Assembly: GCA_947629135.1 (NCBI GenBank)
Contig: CANRCN010000003.1
Location: 1 to 42,822, forward strand
Length of the DNA: 42,822 nucleotides
Direction of reading: 5' to 3'
Source: an uncultured Bacilli bacterium
GTDB lineage: Bacteria > Bacillota_I > Bacilli_A > RF39 > UBA660
Numbering within the stretch: position 1 is the stretch's first letter; the number at the start of each line of letters is the position of its first letter. Shown here in pieces: positions 12,785 through 19,460 of this stretch. The notes beneath the pieces were generated by a model. The model was not told where the DNA came from. It saw only the letters and a program-made list of their open reading frames with translations, and made no database searches. The position numbers and the translations under genes were made by a program.

Positions 12785-13336
12785 ATGAATTGGGTATATA
12801 TTATTTTAGGAATAGTTGTATTATTATTAATTTATGTATTTGTAACTTATAATAGTTTAATTAAAGTAAGAAACAAAGTGGAAGAAGCTTTTTCAACAAT
12901 GGATGTTTATTTAAAGAAAAGATGGGATTTGATTCCAAATATAGTTGAAACTGTAAAAGGTTATGCTAAGCATGAAAAGGATACTTTAAATGAGATAGTA
13001 GAACTTCGAAATGGAGTTTATGAAAAGATGAATACAAGTGATAAAGTAGAAGTTAATAACAAATTATCTCAAAATATTACAAAGTTAATGGCTATAGCAG
13101 AAGCATATCCAGATTTAAAAGCTAGTGAAAACTTTAAAGATTTAAGTGGACAGCTTGCCAAAGTTGAAGAAGATATTGCAAATGCTAGAAAGTATTATAA
13201 TGGAGCAGTTAGAATTATGAATGATAAAGTACAAATGTTTCCTAGTAATTTAATAGCTTCAATGTTAGGATTTAAAAAACAACCAATGTTTGAAGTAACT
13301 GAAGCTGAAAGAGAAAATGTTAAAGTTGAATTTTAA
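12785..13336 (+). CDS. lemA: LemA family protein
   Basis: 183 residues. One N-terminal TM (about 3-21) is followed by the helical LemA domain. The family hallmark is complete: YNSLIKVRNKVEEAFSTMDVYLKKRWDLIPNIVETVKGYAKHE, then ARKYYNGAVRIMNDKVQMFPSNLIA. LemA proteins have an outside helical bundle, and their role is unsettled. They are very often next to DUF2207 or TPM-domain membrane proteins, and here two DUF2207 genes follow within 15 and 17 nt. That makes a three-gene envelope operon (lemA-DUF2207-DUF2207). Confidence 0.93.
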   Translation: MNWVYIILGIVVLLLIYVFVTYNSLIKVRNKVEEAFSTMDVYLKKRWDLIPNIVETVKGYAKHEKDTLNEIVELRNGVYEKMNTSDKVEVNNKLSQNITKLMAIAEAYPDLKASENFKDLSGQLAKVEEDIANARKYYNGAVRIMNDKVQMFPSNLIASMLGFKKQPMFEVTEAERENVKVEF

Positions 13337-13350
13337 GAAAAGGAGGGACT

Positions 13351-15114
13351 ATGATAAAAATATTTAAAAAGTCTCTTGTTTTCTTTTGTTTAGTATTTTT
13401 ATTATCTTGTTTAAATGTTAAGGCTTATGCTAATTATACAATTGATAAATTTGATATTGATATTAAAGTGAATGAAAATAATACTTATGAAATTAAAGAA
13501 ATAATTGATGTTAATTTTAAAGCTTCTGTTAAAGAATTTAATATAACAATACCTCGTAGTAATTATATAGATAATAAAATTAAAAGTAAAGTTAAAATAA
13601 CTAATTTAAAAGTAAATGATACATATGAATTGATAAATAATAAAGATAATTATCAAATAAAACTAGGTGAAGCTATAGAAGGAAAGAAACAATATATAAT
13701 TAGTTATACTTATGAGGTTTCTTATAATAATAGTATATATAATAAATTTGAAGGATTTTATTATAATTTAGTTGGGCAAGATTGGGATGCTTTAATATAT
13801 AACGTTGATTTTAAAGTTAGTTTACCAAATAATTATAGTGATTATAATGTTTCCTTTAAAAGTAAAGAAATAGTTCAATCGGATGAAGATAAATTTAAAT
13901 ATGAAATAAAAGATAATGTTATAACAGGTACTTCTACTAAGATATTTGCAGGAGATTTAATTTTAATAATTTCTTTACCAGTAAAACTTGCTTCTAATGA
14001 TTTAACTAAATTATGTATGTTAGTATTTTTTATTCCAATTATTTGTTTAGGAATTGCAATATTAATATGGTATAAAAAAGGAAAAGATGAAATAATAGAA
14101 ACAGTTGAATTTTATCCACCAAAAGAAATTAATAGTTTAGAAATGGGATTTTTAAATGATGGATTGGTTGATGAAAAAAATGTTTTATCACTTTTAATTT
14201 ATTTAGCAAATAAGGGTTATTTAAAGATAAAAGAAGAGAATGATGACTATAAATTTATAAAATTGAAGGAATATGATGGTAACAAAAAAGAAGAAAAAAT
14301 GTTTTTAGATGCTTTATTTGAAAAATCTCATAAGAATGAAGAAGAATTCGTTTATAAAAGTGAATTAGATACAGATTTTTCTTATAGAATAAAAGAGATA
14401 ATAAATAGTATGCATAGTAGAGCTAATTATAGAAAAATATATGAAAGAACAACATTTTGGCATTTCATAACAGTACTACTTTATATAATTTCGATTATAG
14501 CAACAGTTTTTCCTTTAATGAATATAATAGAATTTACTATTTTTGGATTTGATGAAATAAAATATATGGAAAATATTTTATTTATTATAATTGGTATTGC
14601 TATTGGTACTAGAATAATATGTATAGAAAATTTACTTCCTAAAGTAAGAAATATTTTTCTAATAATTGGGATAGGAATTTTTATGATTATATTTTTCAAT
14701 TTATATGAAATTTTGTTATATAATTCTTTTGTTATAATAGTATTTATAGTTGGTTTAATATCATCTATAGGAATAATCATTTGTTATTCATATCTTGATA
14801 AAAGAACAGAAGAGGCTTCTAAAATGGTAGGTAGAATCAGAGGATTCAAACGATTTTTAGAGACTGTAGAAAGAGATAGATTAGAAAGTTTATTAAACGA
14901 TGATCCTGATTATTTTTTTAAGATATTACCTTATGCTTATGTACTTGAATTATCTGATAAATGGATTAAAGACTTTGAAGACATTGTACTTCCTGAGTCT
15001 CCTCAATCTAAAGAGTTTGATATTTATGAAATTTTATTAGATGATTGTATGCCTAGTTTAATTTCACTTGTTGCAATTGCAGGAATATCACTTTTTAATA
15101 TAATTAAAAAGTGA
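13351..15114 (+). CDS. DUF2207 membrane protein, tail-less paralog
   Basis: 587 residues. Signal peptide (about 1-26, ending VKAYA), an extracellular DUF2207 beta domain from YTIDKFDIDIKVNENNTYEIKE to about residue 205, then a TM at about 220-240. A cytoplasmic region includes ETVEFYPPKEINSLEMGFLNDG and LSLLIYLANKGYLKI, the winged-helix-like core of the family. Four hydrophobic segments lie at about 370-475, and a conserved C-terminal part has RIRGFKRFLETVERDRLE. Unlike the next gene and most family members it has no Gly/Ser-rich tail. It is clearly a tandem duplicate of that gene. Family function is unknown. The minus ORF 14481-14780 is a shadow. Confidence 0.85.
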   Translation: MIKIFKKSLVFFCLVFLLSCLNVKAYANYTIDKFDIDIKVNENNTYEIKEIIDVNFKASVKEFNITIPRSNYIDNKIKSKVKITNLKVNDTYELINNKDNYQIKLGEAIEGKKQYIISYTYEVSYNNSIYNKFEGFYYNLVGQDWDALIYNVDFKVSLPNNYSDYNVSFKSKEIVQSDEDKFKYEIKDNVITGTSTKIFAGDLILIISLPVKLASNDLTKLCMLVFFIPIICLGIAILIWYKKGKDEIIETVEFYPPKEINSLEMGFLNDGLVDEKNVLSLLIYLANKGYLKIKEENDDYKFIKLKEYDGNKKEEKMFLDALFEKSHKNEEEFVYKSELDTDFSYRIKEIINSMHSRANYRKIYERTTFWHFITVLLYIISIIATVFPLMNIIEFTIFGFDEIKYMENILFIIIGIAIGTRIICIENLLPKVRNIFLIIGIGIFMIIFFNLYEILLYNSFVIIVFIVGLISSIGIIICYSYLDKRTEEASKMVGRIRGFKRFLETVERDRLESLLNDDPDYFFKILPYAYVLELSDKWIKDFEDIVLPESPQSKEFDIYEILLDDCMPSLISLVAIAGISLFNIIKK

Positions 15115-15131: not shown

Positions 15132-17024
15132 ATGAATTTATTTAAAAAAATAGTATTTGTATTTGTCTTGCTATTTTTTATATCTACTTACAATGTTAAA
15201 GCTCTTACAGGCTATACAATTGATAAGTTTGATATTGATATTAAAGTAAATAAAGATAATACTTTTGATATTAAAGAGACTATTACGGCTAATTTTAGTG
15301 TTCCAAAACATGGTATATTTTTAACAATTCCTTTAAGGAATGAAGTAAAAAGGGAAGATCGAACTAGTTATAAAAATAAAGCTATTATTACTAAGGTAAA
15401 AGTAAATGAAAAGTTTACTACTAGTAGAGAAAATGGAAATTATAAAATAAAAATAGGTTCTGATAACAAAACTTTAACTGGTTTAAAAGAATATATAATT
15501 AGTTATCATTATAATATAGGTAATGATAAAACAAATAAGTTTGATGAACTTTATTATAATTTAATTGGAATTGATTGGGATACTGATATTTCTAATATAA
15601 CTTTTAAAATTAGTATGCCAAAAGAATTTGATGAATCTAAATTAGGATTTTCAGCAGGGAGATATGGTGAAAGTGGAACGTCAGATATTACCTATCAAGT
15701 AGATGGAAACGTTATAACTGGAACATTTAATAGGATTTTATATCAAGGAGAAACAATAACAGTAAGACTCGAATTACCTGATGGATACTTTGAAAAACAA
15801 AAAGTTAATATAATTGATTATTTGATTTATTTAATTCCAATTATCTTTCTTGTAGTATCTATTCTTCTTTGGTATTTGTATGGTAGAGATGATCAAGTTA
15901 TTGAAACAGTTGAATTTTATCCTCCAAAAGGAAAAAATAGTTTGGAAGTAGGCTTTTTATATAAAGGAAAAGCTATTCAAGAAGATGTTACATCTTTATT
16001 AATCTATCTTGCTAACAAAGGATATGTTAAGATTGAAGAAGAAGGTAAGAAAGGTTTTAAAATTATTAAAATAAAAGAATATGATGGTAAAAATGAAGAA
16101 GAAAAAGAATTTTTAGAGGGTTTATTTAAAAAATCTAGTAAAACTAAAGATGGTATAGAGTTTGTAACTGATGATGATTTATATGATAGTTTTTATGTAA
16201 CTATGAATAAAATTTTAAAAAGTATTAATTCTAAGGAAAATAAAAATAGTATATTTGAAAAATCTGCATCAAATAAATCTTTTATAATTATTTTAATGAT
16301 AATTGCAACCTTTTGTATAATTACTATTCCTCCTTTTATAAAGTATGAAGAAATAGATATTATAATGTTTGCTCTTTTATTTCCTGGAATAGGATTTACT
16401 ATAATGCTTCAATCTTTTATTTGGGATAACTCACTTTATATAAATGGACAAGCTATTAATTCTAAAATTGCAGCAAGAATATTCGGAGTTATCTTTGGCT
16501 TACTATTTGGAGGTTTTCCTTTTATAGTTATGGTTTTACCAGTACTATCTCAAGAATTAATTTATTTAATTATGTATATAGTTGGTATTATATGTGTATT
16601 TGGAATGTTAATTTCTTTAAAATATTTGCCAAGAAGAACACCTTATGGAAATGAAGTATTGGGAAAACTTAAAGGTTTTAAAACTTTCTTAGAAACAGCT
16701 GAAAAAGAAAGATTAGAAGCTATGGTAAAAGATAATCCAACGTATTTCTATGATATTTTACCATTTACATATGTTCTTGGGGTATCTAAGACTTGGATTA
16801 AGAAATTTGAAGCAATTAATATAGAAGCTCCTACTTGGTATTATGGATCAGATACTTTTGATATAATTATGTTTAATAGATTTATGAATAATACAATGAA
16901 AGTTGCATCTAAAAGTATGACATCTAGTCCTAGTAGTTCTTCAGGTGGATTTTCTGGTGGAGGCTTCTCAGGAGGTGGATTTTCTGGTGGAGGCTCTGGC
17001 GGTGGAGGCGGAGGCTCTTGGTAA
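15132..17024 (+). CDS. DUF2207 membrane protein with glycine-rich C-terminal tail
   Basis: 630 residues, same plan as the preceding paralog: signal peptide ending NVKALTG, N-terminal beta domain (TIDKFDIDIKVNKDNTFDIKE), TM near 235-255, ETVEFYPPKGKNSLEVGFLYKG, a TM cluster around 385-500 and LKGFKTFLETAEKERLEAM. The last 25 or so residues are Ser/Gly with Phe (SGGGFSGGG repeats) ending GGGSW. The repeat is visible at DNA level as near-identical units of GGTGGATTTTCT and GGTGGAGGCT. Gly-rich tails of this kind are typical of DUF2207 and TPM proteins. SD AAGGAGGGG is strong. It is the last gene of the lemA operon. Confidence 0.87.
   Translation: MNLFKKIVFVFVLLFFISTYNVKALTGYTIDKFDIDIKVNKDNTFDIKETITANFSVPKHGIFLTIPLRNEVKREDRTSYKNKAIITKVKVNEKFTTSRENGNYKIKIGSDNKTLTGLKEYIISYHYNIGNDKTNKFDELYYNLIGIDWDTDISNITFKISMPKEFDESKLGFSAGRYGESGTSDITYQVDGNVITGTFNRILYQGETITVRLELPDGYFEKQKVNIIDYLIYLIPIIFLVVSILLWYLYGRDDQVIETVEFYPPKGKNSLEVGFLYKGKAIQEDVTSLLIYLANKGYVKIEEEGKKGFKIIKIKEYDGKNEEEKEFLEGLFKKSSKTKDGIEFVTDDDLYDSFYVTMNKILKSINSKENKNSIFEKSASNKSFIIILMIIATFCIITIPPFIKYEEIDIIMFALLFPGIGFTIMLQSFIWDNSLYINGQAINSKIAARIFGVIFGLLFGGFPFIVMVLPVLSQELIYLIMYIVGIICVFGMLISLKYLPRRTPYGNEVLGKLKGFKTFLETAEKERLEAMVKDNPTYFYDILPFTYVLGVSKTWIKKFEAINIEAPTWYYGSDTFDIIMFNRFMNNTMKVASKSMTSSPSSSSGGFSGGGFSGGGFSGGGSGGGGGGSW
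16936..17013 (+). repeat. Short tandem repeat coding for the Gly-rich tail
   Basis: Units of about 24 nt (GGTGGATTTTCTGGTGGAGG type) are repeated, with drift into GGCGGTGGAGGCGGAGGC. This is the most G-rich stretch of an otherwise A/T-rich window and a likely site of length change by slippage. Confidence 0.6.
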
Positions 17025-17037
17025 TAAAATAAATAAA

Positions 17038-17080
17038 AATAGGGAAAGTAATTTGTTACTTTTCCTATTTTGTTTTCTTT
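17038..17080. terminator. Bidirectional terminator between convergent operons
   Basis: AATAGGGAAAGTAA / TTACTTTTCCTATT (one G-T pair) with a TTTG loop and T-runs on both sides. It ends the lemA operon rightward and the CarD/alpha-CTD operon leftward, whose last stop codon lies within the right arm. Confidence 0.88.
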
Positions 17081-17283
17081 TTATTTAAATCAAGTCCTAT
17101 TAATTCTAATTTAATTACTACTTGTTTAATATCATTATCAGATAATCCAATACTTTTTAGAAATGGACGATTCTTAATCCAAAGATCTTCAATTTTTAAA
17201 ATATTATTTTCTTGAAATAAACTATTTAATTTTGAATTTAATTTTAAATAACTAATATCTTCATCTAAATATTTATTACGCAT
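17065..17283 (-). CDS. Free-standing RNA polymerase alpha-CTD-like protein
   Basis: 72 residues from ATG 17283; the track start at 17298 is a GTG without an SD. After about 15 residues the protein follows the alpha-CTD pattern of RpoA: LNSKLNSLFQENNILKIEDL, then KNRPFLKSIGLSDNDIKQVV, then KLELIGLDL. This resembles the bacterial alpha-CTD order 'S-CL--AGI--V-EL', 'L---RNLG-KSL-E', 'KL-ELGL-L', two helix-hairpin-helix units. It has no alpha-NTD, so it is not RpoA. It overlaps the CarD-like gene by 8 nt, so two putative RNA polymerase-contacting proteins are made together. It may bind DNA or compete with alpha-CTD for activators, which is inference. It could also be a generic HhH protein. Confidence 0.6.
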   Translation of the reverse strand: MRNKYLDEDISYLKLNSKLNSLFQENNILKIEDLWIKNRPFLKSIGLSDNDIKQVVIKLELIGLDLNKKKTK

Positions 17284-17767
17284 GATCCATTCCCTCACAT
17301 AATCTATTAATTACATACTCTTCAGTTTCATTTATACTCATTTCAAGAACAACAGAAAACTCAGGTATAATATATTTTTCAGCCATTTCCATATAGTTTT
17401 TATCTTTATCACTTATTTTTCTTTTGTTATCAAGTCTTTTCTTATTTCTTAAATAAGTAGTTTTTATAACTTTAATTAAATCTTCATAAGAACCACTAGC
17501 AATTAATTTTTTATATTCATTTTCAAGTAATTTATCATCATCTGTTAGTATTTCAATATTTTGCATATTATCAAGAATATTATTAACTTCATTTAAACTA
17601 AGTAAATTTCTAATTGCTTCATTTGTAATAGGAACACTTAATTTTAAAGATTCATCATTTATAGGAACTAAGATATAGTAATCAGTATCATTCATATATT
17701 TTTCTTTAATATCAAATATTTTACAAACATCCTTTAAATAAATAACATAATCACCTATTTTATACAT
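17276..17767 (-). CDS. CarD family transcription regulator
   Basis: 163 residues from ATG 17767, which follows AAGGAGG; the track start 17869 is over-extended through the promoter. The N-terminus has the CarD/CdnL/TRCF RNA polymerase-interaction fold: KIGDYVIYLKDVCKIFDI, then DYYILVP and LSVPITN. The helical C-terminal part starts RNLLSLNEVNNIL and contains YEDLIKVIKTTYLRNKKR and EMAEKYIIPEFSVVL. CarD proteins bind the beta subunit and stabilise open complexes at rRNA and other promoters. The usual 'HGVG-I' loop is diverged here (DVCKIFDI). It has its own extended -10 promoter and is followed by the alpha-CTD-like gene. Confidence 0.85.
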   Translation of the reverse strand: MYKIGDYVIYLKDVCKIFDIKEKYMNDTDYYILVPINDESLKLSVPITNEAIRNLLSLNEVNNILDNMQNIEILTDDDKLLENEYKKLIASGSYEDLIKVIKTTYLRNKKRLDNKRKISDKDKNYMEMAEKYIIPEFSVVLEMSINETEEYVINRLCEGMDHA

Positions 17768-17827
17768 TATAAACCTCCTTGTAGAACCAACAACTAATAA
17801 TGTACGTAGTCCTTTTTTTTCACATAT

Positions 17828-17856
17828 ATTATAACACTTTTTAATGAAAAATGTAA
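17828..17856 (-). promoter_or_regulatory. Promoter of the CarD/alpha-CTD operon
   Basis: On the minus strand TTACAT (17851-17856), 17-bp spacer, TATAAT (17828-17833) with an extended TGT in front. The -35 is only 7 bp from the -35 of the divergent promoter. Confidence 0.78.
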
Positions 17857-17863
17857 GAAAAAT

Positions 17864-17892
17864 TTGCAATTTTTATGTATTTATGATATAAT
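17864..17892 (+). promoter_or_regulatory. Promoter of the transglutaminase-like gene, divergent to the CarD promoter
   Basis: TTGCAA (17864-17869), 17-bp spacer, TATAAT (17887-17892). The start is near 17899, about 17 nt before ATG 17916. RNA polymerase bound here would overlap the divergent CarD promoter. Confidence 0.75.
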
Positions 17893-17915: not shown

Positions 17916-19460
17916 ATGTTTGATACTTTTTATATTGATTTAGATATTTTAAATAATGAAACAAGAAGGATATTTGATTATCATGATTTAGAAGAATTTA
18001 TTATTAATAAAGAAATTTTAGTTTATATTATTAATAACAAAGATATGTTATTAAAATTAATGGATATTATGTTAGATAAGACTAAATATTCTATTAAATT
18101 AGAAATAAAAAATAGAGAATCAAGTATTACTATTAGTAAGATGAGTTTGTTTCAAGAATTAATGAAAATAATTGAAGAAGATAATATTAAAATAGATAGA
18201 GAAGTATCTATAAAATTAAGTAATGTTTTTAGAAATACTAATTATAATGTTTCTGATATTAAACATGAAGTAATAATTGATAATGTTAAAGAAATCTATC
18301 CTGTTAATTTATTCTTTGAATTTTTATACTTAGATAAATTAAACTATAAATTAATAAGTAATATTAATATATTTAGGGGTTATGAACTTAGTCATTTTGT
18401 ATATGCTTTAATGGATTATTTAAAAAAGAATCATATTTTAGATTTATATGATTTTAATAGTGAAGTAATAGAAAAAATAAAAGATTTAGCAAGTATGCAA
18501 TTTGTTGATTATGAAGCATTTAATAAATATCAAGATACGGTTGATAATAATTTAAATTCAATAAAAATTAATAAAGAATTAGAAAGTATTTTAGATAAAG
18601 AAATGGAAAATGGTAAAGATACTTTTGATAAACTAATGAAAGTTTATTTAAAATTAGGTTCTTTATTTAGTTATGATATTAAGTTCTTTTTAGGAGAATA
18701 TACTCTTCATAAAAAAATAAAAAATATTTCTAAACTTAATCTTAGAAATAATAAAACTGTTTGTTTTGAAATGTATGGGATTCTTGCTTATTATTTAAAG
18801 AAATTAAATATTAATTATAAAGTTTATCCAGAAGATTATAAATATGGTTCTGACCATCCTTATATAGTATTTAGATATAATGAATATTTAATAAAAATAG
18901 ATTTAGTTAAAAGTACTCTTACATCAGATTTAATTAATATTAAATTAAATGATAATTTAAATGGTATTACTTGTATTAATAAGAATGAACAAACAAGATT
19001 ATCTTTTAATAATTTTTTAAATAGATATTATAAGAGAAAATTCTTTGATTATGAAGAGGTTATGTTACCTAGAACTAGATTTATATATGATAATCCTATT
19101 AATGATAACATTAAAGAATTATTAAGATATATTGATTTAGCTTATGCAAGAGTAAATGATGATTTAGATGTAATGGATAAAATGGGTATATTTTTATCAA
19201 GTTTAAAACAATTAAAAAATAAATATTATTTAGATAATATGGATATGCAAGTTGTTAGAGATTATAATAATAAATATGGTATTTCTATGTTAATATCTTT
19301 ATATGATGGTAATGATTACATGTATGTTTTATATGATTTAGATTATTTACAGATATTTAATAGAAAAGATATGAAAGAAATATTTGAAAATGCTAATATT
19401 ACTAGATTACAAGAGAAAGATATACCTGGGTTAGATAATAAAAAAATGATTACAAAATGA
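17916..19460 (+). CDS. Large protein with a transglutaminase-like core, otherwise unknown
   Basis: 514 residues, no signal peptide or TM, so cytoplasmic. The first 220 residues are not recognised. From about 250 to 350 a transglutaminase-like (papain-fold) core can be seen. The Cys at the start of a helix is in KTVCFEMYGILAYYLKKL (Cys283), followed by a strand. The His is in SDHPYIVFRYNEYLIKIDL (His314) with Asp329 in the next strand, so the Cys-His-Asp order and spacing fit. Many such intracellular proteins in Firmicutes have no known substrate. It is monocistronic, divergent from the CarD operon, and ends convergent with clpP. The functional call rests on the triad pattern alone. Confidence 0.55.
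   Translation: MFDTFYIDLDILNNETRRIFDYHDLEEFIINKEILVYIINNKDMLLKLMDIMLDKTKYSIKLEIKNRESSITISKMSLFQELMKIIEEDNIKIDREVSIKLSNVFRNTNYNVSDIKHEVIIDNVKEIYPVNLFFEFLYLDKLNYKLISNINIFRGYELSHFVYALMDYLKKNHILDLYDFNSEVIEKIKDLASMQFVDYEAFNKYQDTVDNNLNSIKINKELESILDKEMENGKDTFDKLMKVYLKLGSLFSYDIKFFLGEYTLHKKIKNISKLNLRNNKTVCFEMYGILAYYLKKLNINYKVYPEDYKYGSDHPYIVFRYNEYLIKIDLVKSTLTSDLINIKLNDNLNGITCINKNEQTRLSFNNFLNRYYKRKFFDYEEVMLPRTRFIYDNPINDNIKELLRYIDLAYARVNDDLDVMDKMGIFLSSLKQLKNKYYLDNMDMQVVRDYNNKYGISMLISLYDGNDYMYVLYDLDYLQIFNRKDMKEIFENANITRLQEKDIPGLDNKKMITK

Follow-up and report, generated by a model that had tools for sequence, protein, structure and literature searches.

A CarD-type regulator gene paired with a free-standing homologue of the RNA polymerase alpha C-terminal domain in uncultured Bacilli

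The C-terminal domain of the RNA polymerase alpha subunit (alpha-CTD) is ordinarily built into the enzyme, and CarD is a global transcriptional regulator that is essential in some bacteria. In Myxococcus, the gene for the small protein CarG shows translational coupling with carD, and CarG, which does not bind DNA, forms one unit with CarD (PMC8156234, PMC4374960). We analysed a stretch of 42,822 nucleotides from an uncultured Bacilli bacterium, hereafter the window, in which a carD gene is followed by a gene for a small, free-standing protein resembling alpha-CTD. Like the CarD-CarG pair of Myxococcus xanthus, this locus combines a protein carrying an RNA polymerase interacting domain (RID) with a small gene downstream for a putative partner, translational coupling being suggested here by the overlap of the two genes. 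However, CarG is confined to myxobacteria and is a 170-residue zinc protein that always occurs with CarD, whereas the small protein of the window has the fold of alpha-CTD, and its family occurs without CarD in some genomes. CarG binds zinc through a His/Cys segment, whereas the small protein contains neither Cys nor His, and the HMGA-like tail of Myxococcus CarD is absent from the CarD of the window. By this comparison, CarG may be the nearest functional precedent for the small protein, albeit with a different fold.

The two proteins can also be compared with their individual counterparts. Similar to CdnL/CarD of mycobacteria, Thermus, and Myxococcus, the window CarD consists of an N-terminal RID and a helical C-terminal domain and is matched over its full length, but unlike them, the CarDs read from this taxonomic family have no wedge Trp and no neighbouring Arg pair. 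The small protein resembles native alpha-CTD (PF03118; B. subtilis structures 1z3e and 3gfk) in fold and in sequence across the whole domain, at one residue shorter. In contrast to the native alpha subunit, it has no alpha N-terminal domain or linker, has lost the determinants for DNA and sigma, and has gained W35, R39, and N67. A coarse keyword search of the open-access literature, with subscription journals outside its scope, found no described operon of CarD and alpha-CTD.

Both genes named in the preliminary description, a CarD gene and a 72-residue gene overlapping it by 8 nt, were confirmed on the minus strand (Table 1). Orthologues of the small gene were present in 12 of the 17 genomes of the genus, and its dN/dS of 0.22–0.42 against sister species is indicative of purifying selection; judging from these sequence comparisons, the 72-aa reading frame is a real gene conserved under such selection. 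The same 8-nt overlap occurred in two relatives (G009 and G006), and the overlap suggests translational coupling from carD to the small gene. A Shine-Dalgarno-like sequence and a promoter-like site precede carD, the latter being one of 12 such sites in an AT-rich stretch where 8.5 were expected by chance. The terminator-like hairpin behind the small gene was the single one found on the plus strand, compared to 0.1 expected. Given the promoter-like site upstream and the hairpin downstream, the gene pair appears to form a self-contained operon. The preliminary description had placed the right edge at position 17892, which lies past carD, within the divergent promoter region. No Rfam match to an RNA element was found in the carD leader, which is conserved in full in two near relatives only.

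A 514-aa gene runs divergently from carD; it had no Pfam match, and all homologues found were next to carD at loci of the genus. Inspection by eye also revealed two tandem paralogous membrane protein genes in the window, preceded by a LemA-like gene. The genome assembly containing the window is incomplete (79% complete). The near relatives are likewise uncultured Bacilli assembled from metagenomes; several belong to a single sample series whose name, "Lapin", suggests rabbit, and others come from rumen and deer gut.

Table 1. Positions of features in the window and of related genes in other genomes and loci of the comparison.
Feature	Position	Strand	Remarks
carD (P0002)	17276..17767	-	ATG start, 163 aa, MYKIGDYVIY...
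Small alpha-CTD-like gene (P0001)	17065..17283	-	ATG start, 72 aa, free-standing
carD/small-gene overlap	17276..17283	-	8 nt, ATGCGTAA; small-gene start within carD end; from sequence
Promoter-like site upstream of carD	17828..17857	-	CTTACA-18-TATAAT, extended -10 (TG); consensus match only
Shine-Dalgarno-like site upstream of carD	17768..17785	-	AGGAGG; from sequence
Terminator-like hairpin 3' of small gene	17036..17071	.	Palindromic, readable from both sides
514-aa neighbour gene	17916-19460	+	Divergent from carD
Membrane protein gene (tandem paralogue)	13351-15114	+	By eye
Membrane protein gene (tandem paralogue)	15132-17024	+	By eye
LemA-like gene	12785-13336		By eye
Decayed small-gene copy	G134:C32:8378-8587		1 TGA and 4 TAA inside
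Alpha-CTD-bearing gene of relative	L170:826-1683	-	
Alpha-CTD-bearing gene of relative	L171:2-1978	-	
Alpha-CTD-bearing gene of relative	L172:654-1295	-	
Alpha-CTD-bearing gene of relative	L173:1124-1924	-	
Alpha-CTD-bearing gene of relative	L174:929-1975	+	

The small protein is a homologue of the RNA polymerase alpha-CTD, by fold and by ancestry. Its 72-aa reading frame leaves out the alpha N-terminal assembly domain, as the preliminary description had noted, and also the linker. The fold check proposed there gave the same answer: when the AF2 model of P0001 (pLDDT 87) was compared with the PDB, the best 50 matches were essentially all RNA polymerase alpha chains (TMq 0.63–0.88). P0001 alone matched neither PF03118 nor, convincingly, any other Pfam family; the orthologue in G011 scored 26.9 bits against PF03118 (cut-off 23.8), and 21 of 40 small-family members matched it at E ≤ 1, with 3.2e-6 as the best value. 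The small-family profile and the native RpoA tails retrieved each other, and hhalign aligned the family to native alpha-CTD tails with a probability of 90 (E 1.6e-6). Two other families, AF1548-like_C (4.6e-6) and SAM_EPH (3.3e-5), matched the small family in Pfam about as strongly as PF03118 did, while against PDB sequences the family profile favoured alpha-CTD, with the Bacillus type as best match (1.6e-5 versus 0.89 for AF1548). Because these two SAM-like families match comparably in Pfam, the assignment leans on PDB, fold, and reciprocal evidence combined. In a tree that included four outgroup rows and was built on few columns with weak forks, the small family was separate from the native tails (100/100).

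Related sequences were also observed in other forms. One small-gene copy, in G134, has decayed through internal stop codons, and relatives also encode longer proteins that carry alpha-CTD (213 to over 650 aa), some of them twice. A stretch of the L171 protein resembles, by eye, the helix-turn-helix of sigma region 4. Within the taxonomic family, alpha-CTD appears to have become widespread as a module.

In E. coli alpha-CTD, R265, N294, K291, and K298 contact UP-element DNA, with K291 being a phosphate contact (PMC7822876). We mapped 40 small-family members and 26 native RpoA tails on E. coli numbering. R265, C269, G296, and S299 were each kept in 0/40 small proteins, and N294 and K298 in four of the 40 each, compared to 26/26 native RpoA for all six positions. 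The UP-element contact set as a whole (R265, N268, C269, N294, G296, K298, and S299) was not found in the small family, in which K291 is kept by all 40 members. The sigma-contact residue D259 was likewise lost from every small protein and was Asp in all 26 native tails. New near-invariant positions appeared in the small family, namely W35 (invariant), R39 (38/40), N67 (39/40), and a basic residue at 69 (40/40), so that the conserved patch comprises W35, R39, and D65-K69, the C-terminal DLNKK. Relatives possess a native RpoA whose CTD is intact; in the genome of the window, the native RpoA gene is interrupted by a contig edge. Given that the DNA-contact residues are lost in the small proteins and kept in native RpoA, a detached alpha-CTD that binds UP elements is unlikely.

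The window CarD scored 23.8 bits against PF02559 (cut-off 23) and 22.8 bits against PF21095 CarD_C, just under the cut-off of 23.1, and a profile search matched it to solved CarD/CdnL structures over the full length (E 6.4e-9). Of 193 genomes in the taxonomic family, 45 had homologues, a few of them fragments, and the predicted domain arrangement of the L087 homologue resembles that of CarD in the Mycobacterium tuberculosis (Mtb) open complex 6edt. At the positions that contact the RNA polymerase beta lobe, the window CarD has K for R25 and S for R47. No CarD read in the taxonomic family has the wedge Trp (W85 in Mtb) or the Arg pair (R87-R88), and the window CarD reads L-E-N-E in this region. 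Of 13 CarDs belonging to other families in the class, most have a Trp only a few residues from the wedge position, a few columns off in the alignment, and all 13 have a nearby Arg. In M. xanthus CdnL, the Trp is dispensable and the Arg set is essential (PMC4182748). We considered whether the loss of Trp and Arg compensates for the gain of a small partner. Since the loss is family-wide and extends to CarDs with no small neighbour, the partnership does not explain it.

Across the class (395 genomes), the taxonomic family of the window was the only one in which we found free-standing small proteins; matches outside it were nearly all RpoA-sized frames, and the few others were weak or located at contig edges. 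The head-to-tail order of CarD and small gene recurred at 22 loci in 20 genomes and at least 10 genera, with a spacing from the 8-nt overlap up to a few tens of nt, and two genomes (G039 and G150) had two such pairs each. In a sample of 193 genomes of the family, 11 had both genes, 33 CarD only, 8 the small gene only, and 141 neither, a co-occurrence with an odds ratio of 5.9 (Fisher p 5e-4, with related genomes treated as independent). By coordinates, the two genes were adjacent in 10 of the 11 genomes having both, and most CarD genes of the family had no small neighbour. Two members of the genus (G003 and G014) kept the small gene and lost CarD, which corresponds to one loss on a tree of few columns and weak forks. 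A distinct subclade of small proteins elsewhere in the taxonomic family (L067-L076 and others) had no CarD at the locus, and none elsewhere where the genome was searched. Therefore, CarD cannot be the sole partner of the small protein, and the pair is not obligatory. The conservation survey envisaged in the preliminary description thus bore out a recurrent gene pair, but not one from which the small gene is inseparable. Given the alpha-CTD homology and the recurrence of the pair in many genera, neither of the outcomes named there as contrary, a fold unlike alpha-CTD or a small gene never next to CarD, was found outright.

In the CarD-free subclade (L067, L068, L070-L076, L086, and L090), the small protein mostly starts with MAK, and its gene lies upstream of a gene for a fast-evolving protein of 500–880 aa; four of these proteins were examined and had no convincing Pfam match. 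This large gene was rejected as a shared partner, showing no homology to the 514-aa neighbour in the window. Co-evolution of CarD and small-protein distances was also rejected, with r at 0.50 overall and -0.02 for 13 loci (the window and 12 from outside the genus); the signal stems from kinship within the genus and is absent in this subset.

At three loci (L087, L096, and L106), the ATG of the small gene comes immediately after the CarD stop codon, in the same frame. A read-through chain of L087, in which the CarD stop was read as Gln (CarD-Q-small), was modelled with this one-residue artificial linker and three fused rows. The AF2 model, a single uncontrolled one without an error matrix, reached a pLDDT of 95.8 and a pTM of 0.83. 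The C-terminal tail of the small protein was ordered in the fused model (93/82) compared to poorly ordered in isolated P0001 (77/43), with the L087 small sequence differing from P0001. The model is suggestive only of a physical docking between the two proteins.

The explanation that we favour, to which we give about an even chance, is that the small protein is a dedicated, non-DNA-binding partner of CarD, similar to CarG, acting via CarD at the polymerase. The two-gene operon would then encode a CarD-type regulator of RNA polymerase together with its own small partner, which derives from alpha-CTD and has lost DNA reading. The RID of CarD would contact the beta lobe of the polymerase, as membership of the CarD family suggests, and the small protein would dock on the helical C-terminal domain of CarD, probably through the face formed by W35, R39, and the C-terminal DLNKK. 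Once docked, it may alter the action of CarD at the upstream edge of the transcription bubble. A bolder and tentative version is that the freed, DNA-blind alpha-CTD is a new accessory subunit of RNA polymerase, and that the wedge-less CarD and its partner tune open-complex formation by protein contacts only. The main rival explanation, less likely in our view, is that the small protein acts alone on the polymerase or on a transcription factor, such as sigma region 4, an activator, or the native alpha-CTD surface, and that its frequent co-expression with CarD merely reflects a shared role in tuning initiation. The persistence of the small gene in G003 and G014, the CarD-free subclade, where the small gene has a conserved neighbourhood of its own, and the mapping of the conserved W35, R39, N67, and K69 at or near the alpha-CTD surface that contacts activators in E. 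coli are all consistent with such independence. However, the replacement of D259 throughout the small family speaks against a sigma contact, and independent action alone leaves the 22 loci immediately behind CarD unexplained.

The remaining explanations start from what the small protein resembles. The preliminary description had proposed a detached alpha-CTD that competes with or replaces the native one, here by binding UP-element DNA. Its fold and ancestry and the retained K291 would suit this role, but with the other DNA contacts and D259 lost in all or nearly all members, and relatives already possessing native RpoA with an intact CTD, we judge this proposal improbable. A decoy that sequesters a regulator binding alpha-CTD, with the CarD linkage being secondary, would profit from the mimicry plausible for a free-standing domain; yet the DNA and sigma faces are so strongly altered relative to native alpha-CTD that the mimicry would be poor, and we find this explanation hardly credible. 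Equally remote, in our judgement, is a SAM-like or helix-hairpin-helix protein with no descent from alpha-CTD and another function: the weak Pfam matches that invite it are outweighed by the PDB sequences, the Foldseek matches, and the reciprocal retrieval of native RpoA.

If the small protein is indeed a dedicated partner of CarD, these conserved, DNA-blind alpha-CTDs tied to CarD would represent a polymerase domain turned into a separate regulatory partner, and CarD would gain a new kind of cofactor. The taxonomic family also adds a CarD lineage without the residues thought to be central to the CarD mechanism.
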